This document shows, one piece after another, positions 8,707-30,184 of a stretch of DNA of 64,000 bases. Positions within the stretch are counted from its first letter, which is position 1; each line of letters starts with the position of its first letter. The DNA is taken from the IMG/VR virus record IMGVR_UViG_3300044614_002195, positions 1 through 64,000 of that record. The stretch is one strand, 5' to 3'. The notes under the pieces were generated by a model. It did not search any database and was not told the origin of the DNA. It worked only from the letters and a program-made list of their open reading frames with translations. This DNA is from a virus. The position numbers and the translations under genes were made by a program.

Positions 8707-10356
8707 CTACGACTGACAATTTTGGCAACTCATTATATTCCTGGCTAATTCTTGGGCCGGATTAGCGCTGCGCTGGTAATACAAGCTTTTTACACCCATC
8801 TCCCAGGCAAACAGAATTAGTTCATTAACATCTTTAGGTTTAGTGTCTGGAGGGATCATTAGGTTTAAACTCTGGGCTTGATCAATATACTTTTGACGTT
8901 GTCCTGCCTGGATGACAATCTCTTTTTGACTAATTTCTCCAAAAGTCTTAAACACATCTTTTTCTTCTTGAGACAAGAAATCTAGATGCTGCACACTTCC
9001 CCCTTTTACAAGGATACTCTTCCATGTCTCCTGATTATCTTTATCTTTGGTTTTCAGCAAGGCCTGCAAGTGGTTATTCTTGTATGTAAATTTTCCTTTG
9101 GCTAGATCTTTGACAAAATAGTTACTGTTCAAAGGTTCAATACTCGGAGAAACCTGACCAAGAATAAACGAGCTGCTGGTTGTAGGGGCGACTGCAAGGG
9201 TAGTGACGTTTCTTCTACCATACCCTTTCAGTATAGGTGCTTCGCCATATTTGTCTGCGAGGCTCATGGTAGCTTTGTCTGCCCTATCTCTGATAAGCTT
9301 CCATATCTCTACGTTTAAAAACTTAGCCTCCATAGACTCCCACGCAATCATTTTACTTTGGAGTAAAGAGTGCCATCCTAGTACTCCAACACCAAGCGCA
9401 CGCTGGTTTATAGCAAATCTTCTGGGAGCCTCCATATACTGCATGCCTTTTGTTTTATCTATAAACTCAGTCATTACAGCGTCCAGGAAATAGACCATTG
9501 TTTCTACCGCATCTGTATCTTTCCAATTGTCATAATTTTCAAGATTTAAAGAAGATAGGTTACATACGAAAGACTCATCTTCGCTATTTGACAAAGCTAT
9601 CTCGCTGCAAAGATTGCTATTTTTAATTTTAAGATTTCTATCCTTGTACACCTGAGGAGCCTGCGCGTTCATAGTGTCGATAAACACAATATACGGATAG
9701 CCTGTCTCAAACTTTTTCTTGATTGCAAGGCTCCATATTTTGCGCTTATCTTTATCGCCGTCACGCATAGCTTTAAGCCAAGCGTCTGTAACAGTAATTC
9801 CAAAGCTAAGATCTTGTATGCTGTTGCCTTCAGACTTAAGTTTTAAAAACTCTTCTATATCAGGATGCTCTATCGGAAGATATGCAGCAAAACTACCTCT
9901 ACGTACATTCCCTTGACTTACCACACTCATCAGTTTATCGAACAACTCCATAAAATGTACTGCACCTGTGCTTTCTCCTCCTGAACTGATACTTGCGCCT
10001 CTGCCTCTTACGTCTCCAAAATACGCACTCGTGCCTCCACCATGTTTGGTCATAATGGCTACTTCACTGGCCTTAGTCATGATGCCTTCCATAGTGTCAG
10101 GTACATAGCTTCCAAAGCAGCTGATGGGTAATCCGCGCTTTCTTCCAAAGTTGCTCCATACTGGAGAACTTAAAGAATAGAACCCGCGACTCATATAATC
10201 TTCAAACTTATCAGCAAAGCCAGTTATACCTAGCAGCTGCTCTGCAGAATCAGCAATATCTCGGATTCTATGCTCTGCTGTTTCGCCTTCTAGAAGGTAG
10301 CCGCGCTCTAAGAACTTTCTAGAGTCCTTGTTCAACCAATAGTATTTTTCAGTCAT
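8707..10356 (-). CDS. nrdA: class I ribonucleoside-diphosphate reductase, alpha subunit
   Basis: 549 aa. It reduces ribonucleotides to deoxyribonucleotides for phage DNA synthesis, with NrdB supplying the radical. Active-site residues are present: Cys80 ('LPISCFGS'), the triad in 'NLCSEI' (Asn248, Cys250, Glu252), Cys265 ('VCNLSSLNL'), the tyrosine pair Tyr526-Tyr527 of the radical path, and the C-terminal redox pair Cys544/Cys547. It is much shorter than E. coli NrdA and has no N-terminal ATP-cone, so overall activity control by dATP is probably lost, a common phage adaptation. It begins 4 nt after the nrdB stop on the same transcript. Confidence 0.96.
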   Translation of the reverse strand: MTEKYYWLNKDSRKFLERGYLLEGETAEHRIRDIADSAEQLLGITGFADKFEDYMSRGFYSLSSPVWSNFGRKRGLPISCFGSYVPDTMEGIMTKASEVAIMTKHGGGTSAYFGDVRGRGASISSGGESTGAVHFMELFDKLMSVVSQGNVRRGSFAAYLPIEHPDIEEFLKLKSEGNSIQDLSFGITVTDAWLKAMRDGDKDKRKIWSLAIKKKFETGYPYIVFIDTMNAQAPQVYKDRNLKIKNSNLCSEIALSNSEDESFVCNLSSLNLENYDNWKDTDAVETMVYFLDAVMTEFIDKTKGMQYMEAPRRFAINQRALGVGVLGWHSLLQSKMIAWESMEAKFLNVEIWKLIRDRADKATMSLADKYGEAPILKGYGRRNVTTLAVAPTTSSSFILGQVSPSIEPLNSNYFVKDLAKGKFTYKNNHLQALLKTKDKDNQETWKSILVKGGSVQHLDFLSQEEKDVFKTFGEISQKEIVIQAGQRQKYIDQAQSLNLMIPPDTKPKDVNELILFAWEMGVKSLYYQRSANPAQELARNIMSCQNCQS

Positions 10357-10359
10357 AAT

Positions 10360-11331
10360 TTAAAACAGGTCGTCTTCGCTAAATGATTGGTTTTTCTTGC
10401 TATACTCGACTGGGCGAGAGTGAAAGAAATCCGTCATGTTATTACCTAACAGTTCTTCTTCAAACCACAAGCTGTCTTTTAGAATTTCTTCGTTTACTTC
10501 AAAAGGTTTTGTAAACCCTATCTGCTGCATAGACTCGTTTATCCTGTTTTTAATAAACTCTTTCAGGATATTTGCGCTAAGTCCTTTCTCTTGTATACCG
10601 TTGACCATCCAGTCAATGATTTTGCTCTCAGATTCAAAAGCTGACTTTGCCTCGTCAACAATACGCTCTTCAAGTTCACTGTCAAATAGCTCAGGGTATT
10701 CTTCACGGATAGTATTCACTATCTTGATACCTACAAGAGCATGTATTGCCTCTTCATTCCTGGTGTACTTGACTTGCTGGTCAGTATCTTTAAGTACGTT
10801 CTTGAATCTAGCAAACCAGTTGATTACATAAAACTGACTGAATAGAGAGACGTTCTCTACGAACAAGGTAAACAAAATCAAAGCGTACAGATATTGCTTT
10901 TTGCTGTCCTTGTAAAACTTATGTGTGTACTTCCTGAGATACTTAACACGTCCTTGAATCCATTCTAACTTTAGATTCTCTTCAAAGACATCCTCAAGCC
11001 CAAGAACAGAGAGTAAACGCTCATAAGCGCTATTGTGTATAACTTCCACGTTAGCCATTACATAGCCTAGGTCTTGTAGGGACGGATGTGGAAGGTTATC
11101 TCCGAGCTTTGCCCAAAATGTTTTAACAGCTACCTCTATCTGCCCGATAGCTGAAAGGGTGCGGACAATAATCTCTCTTTCTTTATCTGAAAGATTTACT
11201 TTGAACTGCTGAATATCTGATTTAAAAGAAAACTCTTTATCCGTCCAGAAGCCGTTATGCATGGCTTCTATAAAAGACTCAGTCCAAGGATATTTGTTTG
11301 GTTTTCTGGAAATTTGTTCTTCAAATATCAT
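10360..11331 (-). CDS. nrdB: class I ribonucleotide reductase, beta subunit
   Basis: 323 aa ferritin-like subunit. The metal and radical site is visible as 'EVIHNSAY' (Glu96, His99, Tyr103) and 'EEAIH' in the second half. The first metal ligand appears to be Glu66 ('QIEVAVKTFW') where E. coli NrdB has Asp84. The tyrosine is retained, so it is not the Phe-type of Chlamydia. It is the first gene of an nrdB-nrdA pair with a 3-nt gap. A TATAGC-like sequence lies upstream on the minus strand. Confidence 0.95.
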   Translation of the reverse strand: MIFEEQISRKPNKYPWTESFIEAMHNGFWTDKEFSFKSDIQQFKVNLSDKEREIIVRTLSAIGQIEVAVKTFWAKLGDNLPHPSLQDLGYVMANVEVIHNSAYERLLSVLGLEDVFEENLKLEWIQGRVKYLRKYTHKFYKDSKKQYLYALILFTLFVENVSLFSQFYVINWFARFKNVLKDTDQQVKYTRNEEAIHALVGIKIVNTIREEYPELFDSELEERIVDEAKSAFESESKIIDWMVNGIQEKGLSANILKEFIKNRINESMQQIGFTKPFEVNEEILKDSLWFEEELLGNNMTDFFHSRPVEYSKKNQSFSEDDLF

Positions 11332-15039: not shown

Positions 15040-16569
15040 TTAACCTATGTCTATTCCTGCTCCCGTCCATTCTGGGGAGTTACCGACGATTAACTCACCA
15101 TCTAGACCACTGCTGCCTCCGCTGCTACCGCAACCACTTTCTAAAGTTACATTACTTACATAAGTAAAACTGCTTGTACTTGTACCTCCAGAGCAGTATT
15201 GCATAGACTCTGTGTCTACTTGGAGAGTAAGTCCATCTGCTACGCATCCAATATAGTCGTATATTGCCTGTATTGTGCCATCTAACGACGACCATCCTGC
15301 ATTTACACTAGCTTTCAGCTGAGAAAGGTGTCCTGCAGCTTGAGCTATCCATTGGTAGATGTTCTCAAACGCCGGCTTTAAACTAGCTATTGATCGCTCT
15401 GCGGATTGAAGAGACGACCAGAGATTTTCGCTGTCTTTCCATAGTGAATCGACGTTGTCTAAAGCCCTGACTGCGTCCCAGGAGGCATCTTCGGCGACTG
15501 CTTGAGCTTGAGCTGCCGCAGTGGCCGATGCTGATGCTTCCGCCTTAGCCTCTGCTGCTGCACTAGCCGCTGCTCTTGCTTCTGCATAAGCGTCAGCTGC
15601 TGCACTGGCCGCTGCAAATGCTTCTGCATAAGCATCAGCCGCTGCCTGTGCTGCGGCGTTAATGGCTGCCCATACGTCCGCAAATGCCGACGCGGAAGCC
15701 TCCGCCCATGCGGAGGCAGAGGCGCTTGCATTGCTTCCTGGACACGTAGACGTGGCCTTGCAATTCCAGCAACCGTTCCCTGTGCTTGCGCCTGGGATAT
15801 AACTGTCAGTTTCACTTGCGTGCGCTGCGTCCCATGCTGCGGCTGCGGCGGGATCAGATGGACGTTGGTTGCCAAAGCGGTCAGTTCCCATTACGTATTT
15901 GCATCCCCCTCCTCCGCCTCCGCCGGAATTACATGAACTGCAATCCAATACCGCGCCATCTTTTCCGTCTACCCCATCCTTGCCGTCCTTGCCGTCTTCG
16001 CCGTCTTTTCCATCTTTACCATCGACCCCGTTTGCGCCTGCGAGTCCTTGAGGCCCCTCTGCGCCATCTACTCCATCTCTCCCAATACCGTCTACTCCAT
16101 CTCTCCCATCAATGCCATCTCTCCCATTAACTCCGTCTATACCATCTTTTCCGTTTATACCGTCTACCCCGTTTGCTCCATTGATTCCACTGACGCATGG
16201 AACATATCCAGACAGGGTTAAACTGCAGGTGTTATCTCCAGTCATTCCGTTGTAGCGTAGAGATAAATTGCCTCCACAAACACTGACAGCATTATATATA
16301 GCTAATCTTTCGCAAGCTTTCGGTATTATTTGAGGAATATCTATCGTGGGAGGTAAAGGTATAATATCAGGGAAATTATACGTGCAACCTACGTCAAGTG
16401 GAACCAGAGGTATAGGCGTAACCGGCGGAATTACGCTTGGAGGAAGAGGACAGTCAGGCTTTTGCTCTTCTGGAGACGTGGGGAGATAGCTTACAAAAAA
16501 CTTTTGATCCCAATCTCCTTCAGGAGGTTTACCTAAATGCAAACTGTTGAGATCAATTTTATTGGGCAT
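15040..16569 (-). CDS. collagen-like fibre protein with alanine-rich helical domain
   Basis: 509 aa. After a Pro-rich N-terminus (about 1-85), residues near 130-205 form Gly-X-Y triplets of the 'GKDGEDGKDGKDGVDGKDG' kind with one register break. Then come a Cys/Gly linker ('CSSCNSGGGGGGGCK'), an alanine/serine-rich stretch of about 90 residues (near 270-360, with Trp and Tyr at intervals) likely to form a long helix or coiled coil, and a Ser/Gly-rich C-terminus. This is the make-up of a trimeric phage fibre. Strand-long shadow ORFs over the repeat are ignored. It overlaps the next gene's stop by one base. Confidence 0.8.
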   Translation of the reverse strand: MPNKIDLNSLHLGKPPEGDWDQKFFVSYLPTSPEEQKPDCPLPPSVIPPVTPIPLVPLDVGCTYNFPDIIPLPPTIDIPQIIPKACERLAIYNAVSVCGGNLSLRYNGMTGDNTCSLTLSGYVPCVSGINGANGVDGINGKDGIDGVNGRDGIDGRDGVDGIGRDGVDGAEGPQGLAGANGVDGKDGKDGEDGKDGKDGVDGKDGAVLDCSSCNSGGGGGGGCKYVMGTDRFGNQRPSDPAAAAAWDAAHASETDSYIPGASTGNGCWNCKATSTCPGSNASASASAWAEASASAFADVWAAINAAAQAAADAYAEAFAAASAAADAYAEARAAASAAAEAKAEASASATAAAQAQAVAEDASWDAVRALDNVDSLWKDSENLWSSLQSAERSIASLKPAFENIYQWIAQAAGHLSQLKASVNAGWSSLDGTIQAIYDYIGCVADGLTLQVDTESMQYCSGGTSTSSFTYVSNVTLESGCGSSGGSSGLDGELIVGNSPEWTGAGIDIG

Positions 16570-17509: not shown

Positions 17510-18079
17510 TTATGCTCCAGTTGCGCCTGTTGCTCCGGCAGCTCCCGAAGGACCAGCGACACCAGTTGCTCCAGTTGCGCCTGTACTTGTTCCAGTTGCT
17601 CCGGTTGCGCCGGTTGCGCCGATGTTTTCATCGCCAGAAGCTGTGCCTGCAGTAACGCTTACACCGGTAGTTACGGTGATCTTGAGGCGGTCGCCCTGAT
17701 CGTCGGATGTTTCGCCTTCGGCCAGCCCGGAAACAGGACCCACTCTGCCTGTACCACGCACGTACTCAATTACATAACTGATTTTTGCGTGTTGTGTAGC
17801 TCTGAGTGTCAAGGTCCCAGAAACGTCTGTTCCTGGATAGACGTAGAGCTCAGCAGGGTTCGTGGTATGTACGATGACTGTTGCGCGAATGATGTCCCTA
17901 GAAGGAACGTCAGCAAAAACAATAGTGTCTCCGCTTTCGTACTCGTCTGTGTTGATTACTCCATAGCTGATTTGCAACTTTTCGTAACGGCTGCTCTTGA
18001 GTCCACCGATGCTTGTTTCGCCTTCAGGCATTTCACTCTCAGGACGTTCGTATTTTTGGATATGTACTAGATTTGGCAT
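17510..18079 (-). CDS. structural protein with collagen-like GAT-repeat C-terminus
   Basis: 189 aa. The N-terminal 140 residues are beta-rich ('ATVIVHTTNPAELYVYPGTD', 'TLTLRATQHAKISYVIEYV'). The last 40 consist of Gly-Ala-Thr type Gly-X-Y triplets with an interruption. This combination is common in phage fibre or head-decoration proteins. It is a monocistronic unit: a 138-nt gap upstream and a terminator downstream. Confidence 0.65.
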   Translation of the reverse strand: MPNLVHIQKYERPESEMPEGETSIGGLKSSRYEKLQISYGVINTDEYESGDTIVFADVPSRDIIRATVIVHTTNPAELYVYPGTDVSGTLTLRATQHAKISYVIEYVRGTGRVGPVSGLAEGETSDDQGDRLKITVTTGVSVTAGTASGDENIGATGATGATGTSTGATGATGVAGPSGAAGATGATGA

Positions 18080-18217
18080 ATTAGTTTATTTTTATTTAGT
18101 TGTTTTTGTTTTTAACAACAGAAAGTCAGGATGCAACAGGAACATTGTTCCCAGAGGATCGAGGATCTACTCCATTGCTAAAAGTATTATTACCTAGGGT
18201 AAAAGTTTTTGCAAGAG

Positions 18218-18625
18218 TTAAATCCAGAATGGATAGCCTACCCTATTAGGTCTAGGCTCCATCCTATAGTCTACGAAAAGTTCCTCGTCTTCAGGTATAT
18301 GCCTATTTGCGACAATCACACGATCTCTGACAATCCAATCGCAATTAGGTTCTCTTGAATGGTTTATGAATGAAAACTTAGAATACTTGTCGTTGGTTAG
18401 GCAGTACTCATTATCTAGCATAACATAGGCATTTCTAGAAATCTGCTCTTCTGTAAGATCAGCGTATTTCATTTTATACCAGCTGGATGGAAAAAGGTTG
18501 TAGTCAACAACAACGTCGCCAGGCTCAAAAGCTCTTGATGAGAACAACCCAAAGCCTTCTACGTGAGACTTTTTTACGTATGTTTCTGGTCCGTTATCTT
18601 CTTCAACTCGAATTATAAGACTCAT
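18218..18625 (-). CDS. SET-domain protein (putative lysine methyltransferase)
   Basis: 135 aa, essentially a bare SET domain. The SAM- and substrate-site motifs are in order: 'SHVEGFGLFSSRAF' (G-x-G at 24-26), 'FINHSREPNC' (Asn88-His89-Ser90, Pro-Asn-Cys 93-95) and 'EELFVDY' ending in Tyr120, the usual catalytic tyrosine. There are no pre-SET or post-SET cysteines. SET enzymes methylate protein lysines and are rare in bacteriophages; the known viral example is the chlorella virus enzyme. The gene lies 62 nt downstream of the RNA polymerase beta-N fragment on the same strand, so the two may be co-expressed. Its target is unknown. Confidence 0.87.
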   Translation of the reverse strand: MSLIIRVEEDNGPETYVKKSHVEGFGLFSSRAFEPGDVVVDYNLFPSSWYKMKYADLTEEQISRNAYVMLDNEYCLTNDKYSKFSFINHSREPNCDWIVRDRVIVANRHIPEDEELFVDYRMEPRPNRVGYPFWI

Positions 18626-18687
18626 AGAGAATAGTTATTATAAGCTACGTCTACAGCATTTCACTAAAAAAGTTCAGTTTTTTTAGG

Positions 18688-19353
18688 CTAATCTCCACCG
18701 ATTAGAATGCCGTACAGCTTGTCTACCTCGTCCCCCGTGTACTGACTTCTATTAGCGTTGTAAATTTTTTCTCCCCAAGCCTGCTTGATACTCATATCTA
18801 AAAGTCCAAGGTCTTTTAGAAGACCATAAAGACGAATTTGAGAATTTTTTATCATCAGTACAAAAAGTTGTTTTTCAGGTAGAAATAATATACGTCCAGA
18901 CTGTCCTGTTCTAGCCTCTGGATTGATGTGAGATTCTGGAATTCCGTCTTGTCTGATCCTGGAATATACACCTGGTAGAAGTCTTTGTTGATTAAGACTC
19001 TCATACTCAGAGCCATTATAAATCACAGTATTATGATTCGTTACATAAGGAATGTGTGCAATCGTTGTAGACTTAGACTCTAGCACTTTACCGGATGCTT
19101 TATGTATAAGATCTACTGTTCCCTTCAAAGGTACTGTAAGGTCTTTCTTTTCGAGTACAGCTTTTTTCTGTGTTGCTGTAGTGATCGTAGGTGCATCTAT
19201 CTTTAGATTTTTAGCCTGCAGTTTAAAATCCTGAGTCTCAATAGCATTTATTTTTTTACCAAAAGAATCTATCGCGGTATCAAATAGCATCTTCCTCAAT
19301 CCGACAGGATCAAAGAAAGGTCTAGTGTTACTTGGAGGATTAGTTGGTTGCAT
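18688..19353 (-). CDS. RNA polymerase beta subunit, N-terminal fragment
   Basis: 221 aa. Residues from about 70 to 195 follow RpoB from roughly E. coli residue 85 to 235: 'LTVPLKGTVDLI' (protrusion), 'IAHIPYVTNHNTVIYNGSEY' for [20 protein letters not shown], 'LLPGVYSR' for RSPGVFFD, then 'GRILFLPEK' and 'QIRLYGLLKDLG' for the start of the lobe. Most of the lobe that should follow is missing here and does not reappear in the central fragment. The gene overlaps its upstream neighbour by 14 nt. It is on the strand opposite to the other three RNA polymerase fragments. Confidence 0.8.
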   Translation of the reverse strand: MQPTNPPSNTRPFFDPVGLRKMLFDTAIDSFGKKINAIETQDFKLQAKNLKIDAPTITTATQKKAVLEKKDLTVPLKGTVDLIHKASGKVLESKSTTIAHIPYVTNHNTVIYNGSEYESLNQQRLLPGVYSRIRQDGIPESHINPEARTGQSGRILFLPEKQLFVLMIKNSQIRLYGLLKDLGLLDMSIKQAWGEKIYNANRSQYTGDEVDKLYGILIGGD

Positions 19354-27190: not shown

Positions 27191-30184
27191 ATGACCGGTA
27201 AAAATTTTAAGTATGTTTTAGAAAGTGGAAAACTTAAAAAAGTTTCCTCTAGCGTAAAGGCCAAGTATAGGATTGCGGACCCTTCCGAGTTTTTTAGTCC
27301 TGTTACAAATCTTATTCCAGGACTTAGCTCTGTTTCCGGTGCTCGTGTACTTATCGGAGATAAGTCGTCTGTTCAGGCGATGACGCTTGTTAATAGAGAG
27401 GCCCCACTAGTTCAGTCATCACCTAAAGGAAACGTAGCGAGTTTCAACAAGCAGTTTAGTAGCTTTGTGAGTGTGTCGTCCAGAGTGGCAGGTAAAGTTA
27501 CTAAAATAGATGAAGAACATATCACGATTAAAGATATCGTCGGCAAAGAGCATCAGCACGATATTTACCATAACTATATAGTAGGTAGGGATAGTCACAT
27601 CCATCACACACCTGCGGTAAAAGTTGGAGACAAAGTCGAGGTAGGTCAACTTCTCGCCACTTCAAACCATTCTGATAATAAGGGCACACTCGCGATAGGT
27701 ATGAATTTAAAAACCGCGATCATGCCGTTTAGATCTCTGAACTTTGAAGACGCCTTGGTTATATCAGAGACTGCTGCAAAAAAGTTAGAAGGCGAACAAT
27801 TGATGCCTATCAGGATGGAAATAGCCAGAGGCATATCTACAGACAAGGACAGATATATTTCTCTTTTTCCTAATAAGTTTTATAATGATCAATTGGCGAA
27901 TATAGACTCAAACGGGGTGGTAAAAAGAGGCGTGGTATTAAAACATGGCGACCCTGTGATATTAGCTTTTCAGCCAAAAACTTTAAAATCTTTAGATATA
28001 CAATTAGGTAAATTGGCGAAGGTAATTAGAAATGCTTTTTCAGATATATCTAATACCTGGAGTTATGAATATGACGGAGAGGTGACTGACGTGGCAGTTA
28101 CAAGCAAGCTCATAACGGTTACAGTGAAAACAAAAAGACCCATGAGTCATGCAGACAAACTTAATATGCCCTTCGGGGCAAAAGGAGTTGTGTCCATTGC
28201 TCCGGACACGCAAATGCCTCAGGGTGAAGACGGAAAGCCTGTAGATGTACTACTTAATACCATGAGTATTACCTCACGCGTGGCTCCTGGTCTTGTGAGC
28301 GCCATGAGCTTAGGTAAACTTGCAGAGAAAAAGGGTAAAGCCATTAACATGACAGGCTTTACTGAAGGCTCGGCAGTTCAAAAAGTGTCAGATGTTTTGA
28401 AGAAAAATAATATAAAAGATACCGAAAAACTATATGATCCTATATCAGGAAAACATATTGAAGTACTTACCGGTCCTTTATATTTTAATAGACTACATCA
28501 TATTGCCGAGGATAAGATTTCCACAAGGTCTGCAGCTACCTCTTATGATATTAATATGCAGCCCTCAAAAGCAGGGTCTGAAGAAAAAGCAAAAAGAATA
28601 GGTAATTTAGCTACAACAGTAGCATTATCTAACGATGCTAAAGCTGTGCTGAAGGATATCGCTACAGTTAGAGCGACAAAGAACGACGACTTCTGGACTG
28701 CGATCAAACTAGGACATACACCTCCACCTCCTAAAGTACCTTTTATTTTCGATAAATTTCTAGGACACCTACGAGGAGCTGGAGTCAATGTACAACAAGA
28801 AGGTTCAAAGTTCCATATTCTTCCTCAGACAGACAAAGACATTGAAGCTATGTCTAAAGGGGAAATTAAAGAGCCTTTAACTTATAAGCTTAAAAAAGAC
28901 GAGCTAGTACATGAGGACGACGGGCTATTTGATCCTACCCTGGTAGGTATACACGGGGATCAATATAATCACATAGTTTTGCAGCATAGCATTCCTAATC
29001 CTATGGCCGAGGAGCATATAAGGAAGCTTCTGAAATTAACTAAAGTTAATTATGATAAAGCTATAGTCTCAGGAAAGCTTGAGAAAGATCTAAAAGCTAT
29101 TGATATCGAGAATAAGATAGTTGAGTTGAAGAAAATTATCTCCTCAGATAAAAAATCAGGAAGAGATGATGCTGTAAAAGCTTTAAGCTTTTTAACTATG
29201 CTTAAACAGAACAATCTTAAGTTATCAGATATGATGCTTACTAAAGTGCCTGTTATTCCTGCGCAATATAGACCGGTAATGGTGCAAGGAGATCAGACAT
29301 TAACAGCAGATGTTAATGAACTTTATAAAGATCTTATGCTGGTAAATAGATCTCTGGGAGAAGCCAAAGATATGCCTGAAGTTGCAGCTGAGCATATAGA
29401 AACAGCTAAGCAACAAGTTTATGACGGAGTTAAGGCTGTCTATGGTTTGGGTGATCCGATTAGACAAAAGAGTATAGAAAAAAGCTATAAAGGACTATTA
29501 GCTTCTGCCTTAGGTTTACAGGGAGGGTCAGCCAAAGAATCAATGTTCCAGGCAAAGGTGGTAAACAAACCAATTGATCTTGTTGGAAGAGCTGTATTGT
29601 TGCCAGACTCAAAACTTGATCTTAACCAGGCAAGCATTCCTCAGCAGGTAGCCTGGGATATATACTCTCCTTTCATCATTAGAAGAATGGTGCGTCAAGG
29701 AATTCCGGCAACTAAAGCCAGAGAGTATCTTGAGAACAAACATCCTCTTGCATCCGCAGCTCTACAAGAAGAGATGCTGGACAGACCAGGGATAGTTACA
29801 CGCGACCCTCAGGTATCTAAATATAACTTCCAAGGGATGTATCTAAAGATCAATCCTGACCCTAAAGATTTTTCAATTAAACTAAATCCTCTAGTGTTTA
29901 AAGGCTATGGAGGAGATTGTGACGGCGATCAGCTTAACGTACAACTCCCCGCTTCAGATGACGCAAAAGAAGAAATTAAAGAAAAGCTGCTGCCTGAAAA
30001 AAACCTAATATATCATAGGTCGTTTTCACCTATATACACACCAGCAAACGAGTCCGCTACAGGACTATTTGCTGCCAGTTACGAAGATAATAAAAATAAA
30101 CCTACAAAATATAACTCCGCCCAGGAAGTTGTTCGAGATTTTTTAGCGGGAAAACTTGATCTAGGTGATAGGGTTGAGTTATAA
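27191..30184 (+). CDS. RNA polymerase fusion: beta C-terminal part + beta-prime N-terminal part
   Basis: 997 aa. Residues 1-480 follow RpoB from about E. coli residue 640 to its end: 'LIPGLSSVSGARVLIG', 'GMNLKTAIMPF' and 'NFEDALVISE', 'ADKLNMPFGAKGVVS' with both active-site lysines (Lys323, Lys331, spaced 8 apart as K1065/K1073), 'HHIAEDKISTRS', and 'AIKLGHTPPPPKVPF' near the beta C-terminus. From about 490, RpoC begins: 'DGLFDPTLVG', 'VIPAQYRPVM', 'VGRAVLLPDSKLDL' and the catalytic 'GGDCDGDQL' (Asp909, 911, 913) in place of NADFDGD. The flap and the N-terminal zinc domain are deleted. It ends just before the TTVGR region where the next RNA polymerase gene starts. Confidence 0.97.
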   Translation: MTGKNFKYVLESGKLKKVSSSVKAKYRIADPSEFFSPVTNLIPGLSSVSGARVLIGDKSSVQAMTLVNREAPLVQSSPKGNVASFNKQFSSFVSVSSRVAGKVTKIDEEHITIKDIVGKEHQHDIYHNYIVGRDSHIHHTPAVKVGDKVEVGQLLATSNHSDNKGTLAIGMNLKTAIMPFRSLNFEDALVISETAAKKLEGEQLMPIRMEIARGISTDKDRYISLFPNKFYNDQLANIDSNGVVKRGVVLKHGDPVILAFQPKTLKSLDIQLGKLAKVIRNAFSDISNTWSYEYDGEVTDVAVTSKLITVTVKTKRPMSHADKLNMPFGAKGVVSIAPDTQMPQGEDGKPVDVLLNTMSITSRVAPGLVSAMSLGKLAEKKGKAINMTGFTEGSAVQKVSDVLKKNNIKDTEKLYDPISGKHIEVLTGPLYFNRLHHIAEDKISTRSAATSYDINMQPSKAGSEEKAKRIGNLATTVALSNDAKAVLKDIATVRATKNDDFWTAIKLGHTPPPPKVPFIFDKFLGHLRGAGVNVQQEGSKFHILPQTDKDIEAMSKGEIKEPLTYKLKKDELVHEDDGLFDPTLVGIHGDQYNHIVLQHSIPNPMAEEHIRKLLKLTKVNYDKAIVSGKLEKDLKAIDIENKIVELKKIISSDKKSGRDDAVKALSFLTMLKQNNLKLSDMMLTKVPVIPAQYRPVMVQGDQTLTADVNELYKDLMLVNRSLGEAKDMPEVAAEHIETAKQQVYDGVKAVYGLGDPIRQKSIEKSYKGLLASALGLQGGSAKESMFQAKVVNKPIDLVGRAVLLPDSKLDLNQASIPQQVAWDIYSPFIIRRMVRQGIPATKAREYLENKHPLASAALQEEMLDRPGIVTRDPQVSKYNFQGMYLKINPDPKDFSIKLNPLVFKGYGGDCDGDQLNVQLPASDDAKEEIKEKLLPEKNLIYHRSFSPIYTPANESATGLFAASYEDNKNKPTKYNSAQEVVRDFLAGKLDLGDRVEL

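Follow-up and report, generated by a model that had tools for sequence, protein, structure and literature searches.

A SET-domain gene that lies beside an RNA polymerase subunit gene in a phage raises two questions: whether the encoded protein is an active methyltransferase and whether the polymerase, or some other protein of the infected cell, is its substrate. The gene is found in the window analyzed here (64,000 nt, positions 1 to 64,000 of the IMG/VR virus record IMGVR_UViG_3300044614_002195), where the SET gene and its motifs are located as follows.

18218..18625, minus strand: SET-domain protein, 135 aa, predicted protein-lysine methyltransferase (Pfam PF00856, AF2, Foldseek)
18548..18556, minus strand: G24-F-G26, cofactor-binding motif (G26 in 23/23 and G24 in 22/23 phage SETs)
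18341..18364, minus strand: N88-H89-S90-R-E-P93-N94-C95 motif (N88 and H89 in 23/23; pairs with NHSCAPNC of KMT2D)
18266..18268, minus strand: Y120, presumed catalytic tyrosine (22/23 phage SETs; pairs with the last Tyr in ELTYDY of KMT2D)
18221..18265, minus strand: C-terminal flank R121–I135 (RxEPRPNR...PxWI), kept among phage SETs; the model has low confidence from residue 127 onward

An intact SET gene in a large phage

The minus-strand reading frame starts with ATG and has no internal stop. The Pfam model PF00856 matches its product with an E-value of 4.3e-15 and 56.5 bits (cut-off 22.4), residues 24–120 spanning model positions 1–104 of 105. The motifs GFG (24–26), NHSREPNC (88–95), and D119-Y120 are all present, and in the whole virus record (198,289 bp) this gene is the single SET match. 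The Cys clusters of the zinc-binding pre-SET and post-SET regions are absent from the protein, in which the only cysteines are C75 and C95. The original prediction, a phage-encoded bare SET domain in which every key motif (GFG, NHSxxPNC, Tyr120) is present, is thus correct. Since one copy with 99% identity, another with 69%, and more than 20 further viral homologs exist, the gene does not occur by chance. On the sequence evidence, a large uncultured phage carries a small, intact gene for a SET-type protein methyltransferase of predicted activity.

Fold, conservation, and predicted activity

The AlphaFold2 model of the window SET (24 aligned sequences) has a pLDDT of 83.2 and a pTM of 0.74, with the last nine residues unreliable. 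In a Foldseek search with this model, the best 50 matches are all SET proteins or complexes, and they include MLL1/3/4, SETD8, SET7/9, and vSET. Sequence searches of the PDB give KMT2D, with E-values of 1.6e-7 for the single window SET and 2.5e-14 for a profile of the phage SETs; the profile also matches KMT2C and EZH2 and, partially, the vSET of PBCV-1 (1.5e-6).

Residues S20, G26, N88, H89, E115, and D119 are unchanged across 23 phage SETs, and Tyr120 is replaced (by F) in one divergent copy only (L017). The core residues are therefore kept in 22–23 of the 23 sequences, and the drift of motifs among relatives, named beforehand as an observation that would speak against activity, is not seen. 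For most comparable (non-saturated) pairs of phage SETs, dN/dS lies between 0.08 and 0.24; a close pair (L035/L037) has a value of 0.67. The conserved catalytic residues and the usually low dN/dS suggest that the window SET most likely has protein-lysine methyltransferase activity, as predicted from sequence and model. SET-fold enzymes can lose activity.

Two phage copies depart from the common form. The divergent copy belongs to a second phage SET type, present in a relative of the window phage (G009, 70368–70652) away from the beta-N gene; its NHSxxPNC motif reads NHSDKPTA and Phe stands in place of the catalytic Tyr. In a T4-like phage (L127, 4986–5389), the SET is split into two overlapping ORFs (a frameshift or a sequencing error).

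Comparison with known SET proteins

Like the window SET, the vSET of PBCV-1 (1n3j/3kma) is a small, bare viral SET, and the model aligns with it at a TM-score of 0.78 over vSET (rmsd 2.8). However, the identity in the structural alignment is 20% and the sequence match is only partial. In addition, vSET is a chlorovirus histone H3K27 methyltransferase acting on algal histones, whereas the window SET would act in a bacterial cell. A phage-encoded histone-like substrate was considered and rejected, since there is no HU-family nucleoid protein in the virus record. By sequence and fold, the best PDB matches are the SET domains of KMT2/MLL and KMT5A/SETD8, but the identities are about 20–26% and the window SET is without the pre-SET/post-SET zinc cluster.

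Databases already contain annotated SET proteins from uncultured Caudovirales (A0A6J5L8Y2 and others) and from giant viruses. Among isolates, tblastn retrieves SETs from five cyanophage records, including Synechococcus phages S-B05 and S-B43, and ORF62 of Stenotrophomonas phage Ps15 is annotated as SET (PMC9025141). The phage proteins among these are, like the window SET, from tailed phages, but they are not recovered by tblastn with the window SET, and the S-B05 copy falls outside its clade. Searches of 50,697 phage records by tblastn gave no match with the window SET, and neither the divergent L017 copy nor the SETs of Shewanella and of L042 had a match in the phage records. The expected great rarity of phage SETs is therefore borne out among isolates (the five cyanophage records and Ps15 ORF62) and fails among the contigs of uncultured phages. 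When the literature was searched for a functionally studied phage SET, only a one-line annotation was found, and a review of jumbo phages does not mention SET (PMC7824862). Thus, phage SETs are already annotated; we have not found a description of the present clade or of its movement between phage lineages. To our knowledge, protein lysine methylation by phages is unstudied.

The phage RNA polymerase

The RNA polymerase genes of the window are located as follows.

18688..19353, minus strand: RNA polymerase beta, N-terminal part (beta-N), 221 aa, upstream neighbor of SET (from comparison with Arash)
27191..30184, plus strand: C-terminal part of RNA polymerase beta fused to the N-terminal part of beta', 997 aa
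31788..33641, plus strand: C-terminal part of RNA polymerase beta', 617 aa

The upstream neighbor of SET aligns at 32% identity with the beta/beta' protein of Salmonella phage Arash (1525 aa) over residues 36–222 of the latter (E 1e-20). Its sole Pfam match, Tim44, is below threshold and was rejected, since the direct comparison with Arash gives RNA polymerase beta. The identity of the beta-N gene is thereby confirmed, as is the spacing first noted, with SET 62 nt downstream on the same strand (gap 18626–18687). The polymerase of the window phage is in three pieces, the beta-N part being on the opposite strand and about 8 kb away from the others; in the Arash protein, a stretch of about 270 residues separates the parts that correspond to pieces one and two, and this stretch is not located in the window phage. 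The lineage is uncultured, the nearest isolates being Salmonella phage Arash and Vibrio phages D69, D148, and D181, with identities of 30%–32% for the polymerase and 26%–29% for the capsid. The polymerase is present in Arash and D69, and no SET was found in those two phages.

A phage-specific clade with variable positions

An HMM search and a phylogeny of SET domains, the checks proposed with the original prediction, agree with its assignment: PF00856 is over its cut-off and the phage SETs fall into a single clade (100/99 support), with members on more than 20 viral contigs. The positions of the gene differ among them. SET follows beta-N in the window and in L031, L040, L036, L038, and L039; in the last three, the frames of beta-N and SET overlap, so that the two are probably cotranslated there. 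Other carriers have the gene near those for ribonucleotide reductase, which in the window are located as follows.

8707..10356, minus strand: nrdA (ribonucleotide reductase alpha, NrdE-prime), SET neighbor in several related phages
10360..11331, minus strand: nrdB (ribonucleotide reductase beta)

In L032, which shares genes with the window phage at up to 90% identity, SET lies between nrdB and nrdA. It is the next gene after nrdA in L041–L043 and in L126 (T4-like); L115 and L116 have it two genes past nrdA, and L118 has it immediately behind a thioredoxin-like ORF. In two phages with the polymerase of this lineage (G017, with locus L041, and G817), SET is far off beside nrdA. The records of three related phages with the same polymerase (G005, G007, and G010) contain no SET. 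The slot after beta-N in other relatives is empty or filled by other ORFs. In G005, it holds a 241-aa ORF (L023, 773–1495, minus strand) without Pfam or PHROG match.

SET is also found in T4-like phages (L033–L035, L037, L126, and L127), assigned on the basis of a T4-type DNA polymerase, tail sheath, gp46, a UvsW-type helicase, and rIIA. There, it adjoins a metallophosphoesterase gene in L033, L034, and L037 (in L035, none is directly beside it), and in L127 it is flanked by recombination and polymerase genes. No multisubunit polymerase was detected in the T4-like contigs of 111.6 kb and 96 kb, which are fragments. In the tree, the T4-like SETs nest inside the diversity of the SETs from the polymerase lineage, a pattern that suggests exchange of the gene between lineages of phages. 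The six SETs linked to beta-N do not group together in the tree, but their monophyly is not rejected (p-AU 0.075). Ribonucleotide reductase is the SET neighbor that recurs across lineages, nrdA and nrdB being common to both phage lineages with 75%–79% identity. No partner or substrate gene traveling with the phage SET was found.

Linkage or co-occurrence of SET with the phage RNA polymerase is thus not conserved. From positions and tree, the clade is a phage-specific family that appears to move between unrelated phages as accessory cargo, and SET is for that reason probably not tied to the adjacent polymerase gene. Accessory cargo fits the observed positions; a dedicated polymerase modifier does not.

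Closest bacterial relatives

The view that SET enzymes are mainly eukaryotic, the bacterial ones being mostly acquired, does not agree with the genomes sampled. The phage SET profile matches 76/396 Bacteroidota and 55/399 Pseudomonadota species (14%–19%, each sample including one genome picked for having SET), mostly in other SET subfamilies, and the phage clade is nearest to a bacterial subfamily. A scan of genome contigs with a three-row alignment gave no bacterial relatives; a six-row alignment found them. The closest bacterial subfamily has an hhalign score of 146, two other bacterial SET groups reaching 99 and 94, and every phage SET scores best against its HMM, with the phage SETs forming their own clade. 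The subfamily is patchy over five phyla (Shewanella, Marinobacter/Ferrimonas, Alteromonas, Campylobacterota including Sulfurovum, Bacteroidales, Gemmatimonadota, and Eggerthellaceae).

Of the subfamily loci, 17 lie on contigs that extend far enough to show the next gene, and in all 17 the gene after SET encodes a protein of 420–480 aa with two predicted C-terminal membrane helices (2TM). This partner is absent at about 20 other bacterial SET loci. The two genes form an undescribed bacterial unit (L044–L062, for example L049, 4929–6797). No partner has a Pfam or NCBIfam match over cut-off; one has a weak match to SLATT_5, a 2TM effector (E 0.0058). PADLOC gave no defense-model match for SET, which was thereby rejected as a known defense protein, and the neighbors of the pair resemble housekeeping genes, not defense islands. 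The bacterial and phage proteins share the motifs K-x-S-[YF]-INHSR and DYRxE and a bare SET core. However, their identity is 23%–36% and the phage copies are solo: no relative of the partner was found at the phage SET loci tested or in a scan of the viral collection.

Proposed function

Sequence, structural model, conservation, and the mobility of the gene together make it probable that SET is a SAM-dependent lysine methyltransferase serving as an accessory host-takeover or counter-defense factor, most likely on a host protein and independently of the polymerase. The gene product would be a compact, self-contained protein-lysine N-methyltransferase, made during infection, that would methylate one or more lysines of a protein present in the infected cell and would act alone. 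Against this reading count the broken SET of L127, the dN/dS of 0.67 for the pair L035/L037, the lack of a partner or substrate gene traveling with SET, and the fragmentary state of the T4-like contigs; the target could also be a phage rather than a host protein. Selection keeps this compact SET clade functional, and the gene has passed among phage lineages that are unrelated. This implies that bacterial cells offer a useful target, and finding that target would reveal a new route of phage action on hosts.

That the substrate is the RNA polymerase of the phage itself, be it beta-N or a different subunit, and that its methylation tunes phage transcription appears very improbable. In favor of this, SET directly follows beta-N in the same orientation in six records, with overlapping frames in three of them. 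But the slot is variable, relatives with the same polymerase either are without SET or have it far off beside nrdA, Arash and D69 have a polymerase and no SET, T4-like phages carry SET on contigs (fragments) without detectable multisubunit polymerase, and the six beta-N-linked copies do not group in the tree, even if the test is short of rejecting such a group. The gene order from which the polymerase had been proposed as a substrate therefore does not sustain that proposal. Ribonucleotide reductase, or another protein of nucleotide metabolism from phage or host, is a target that we regard as improbable, despite the proximity of SET to nrdA, nrdB, or a thioredoxin-like ORF in several arrangements and in two phage lineages. 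Roughly half of the distinct SET loci lie away from nrd genes, and the linkage may only reflect a shared ride in one exchanged region. We know of no precedent for methylation of ribonucleotide reductase by a SET enzyme, which also counts against it.

Modification of a virion protein or another phage protein is improbable to the same degree: the genes downstream in the window (17510–18079 and 15040–16569) encode collagen-repeat tail-like proteins, which would be candidate substrates, but SET moves independently of them. Another reading concerns the bacterial pair. The phage SET, as an orphan relative, might counter or mimic the pair and neutralize it, for example by methylating the membrane partner, in the manner of an orphan antitoxin or a decoy enzyme. 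The profile proximity of the phage SETs to that subfamily, the strict association of the partner with it, its patchy distribution, and the weak SLATT_5 match are consistent with this; the low identity between phage and bacterial SETs, the lack of a PADLOC match, the housekeeping-like neighborhood, and the partner's lack of a Pfam or NCBIfam match over cut-off weigh against it, and we hold it to be unlikely. If true, it would imply an arms race between phages and bacteria based on lysine methylation, and the pair is a concrete candidate target to test. A host protein, modified independently of the polymerase, is the target that we favor.

A structured RNA element beside the SET slot

Just downstream of the SET gene, at the edge of the variable slot, there is an RNA element that was not listed beforehand.

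18100..18190, minus strand: conserved structured RNA element, leader of gene 17510–18079

The element is strongly covarying. It forms a three-way junction with 24 pairs, 7 of them with compensatory changes, and 95% of the cells in the alignment are paired, versus 35%–51% when the alignment is slid. Rfam has no match for it. A promoter-like site (18214–18186) accompanies it. The element is present also in kin of the window phage without SET, and the covariance model finds it in G017 and G817, both left out of model building.
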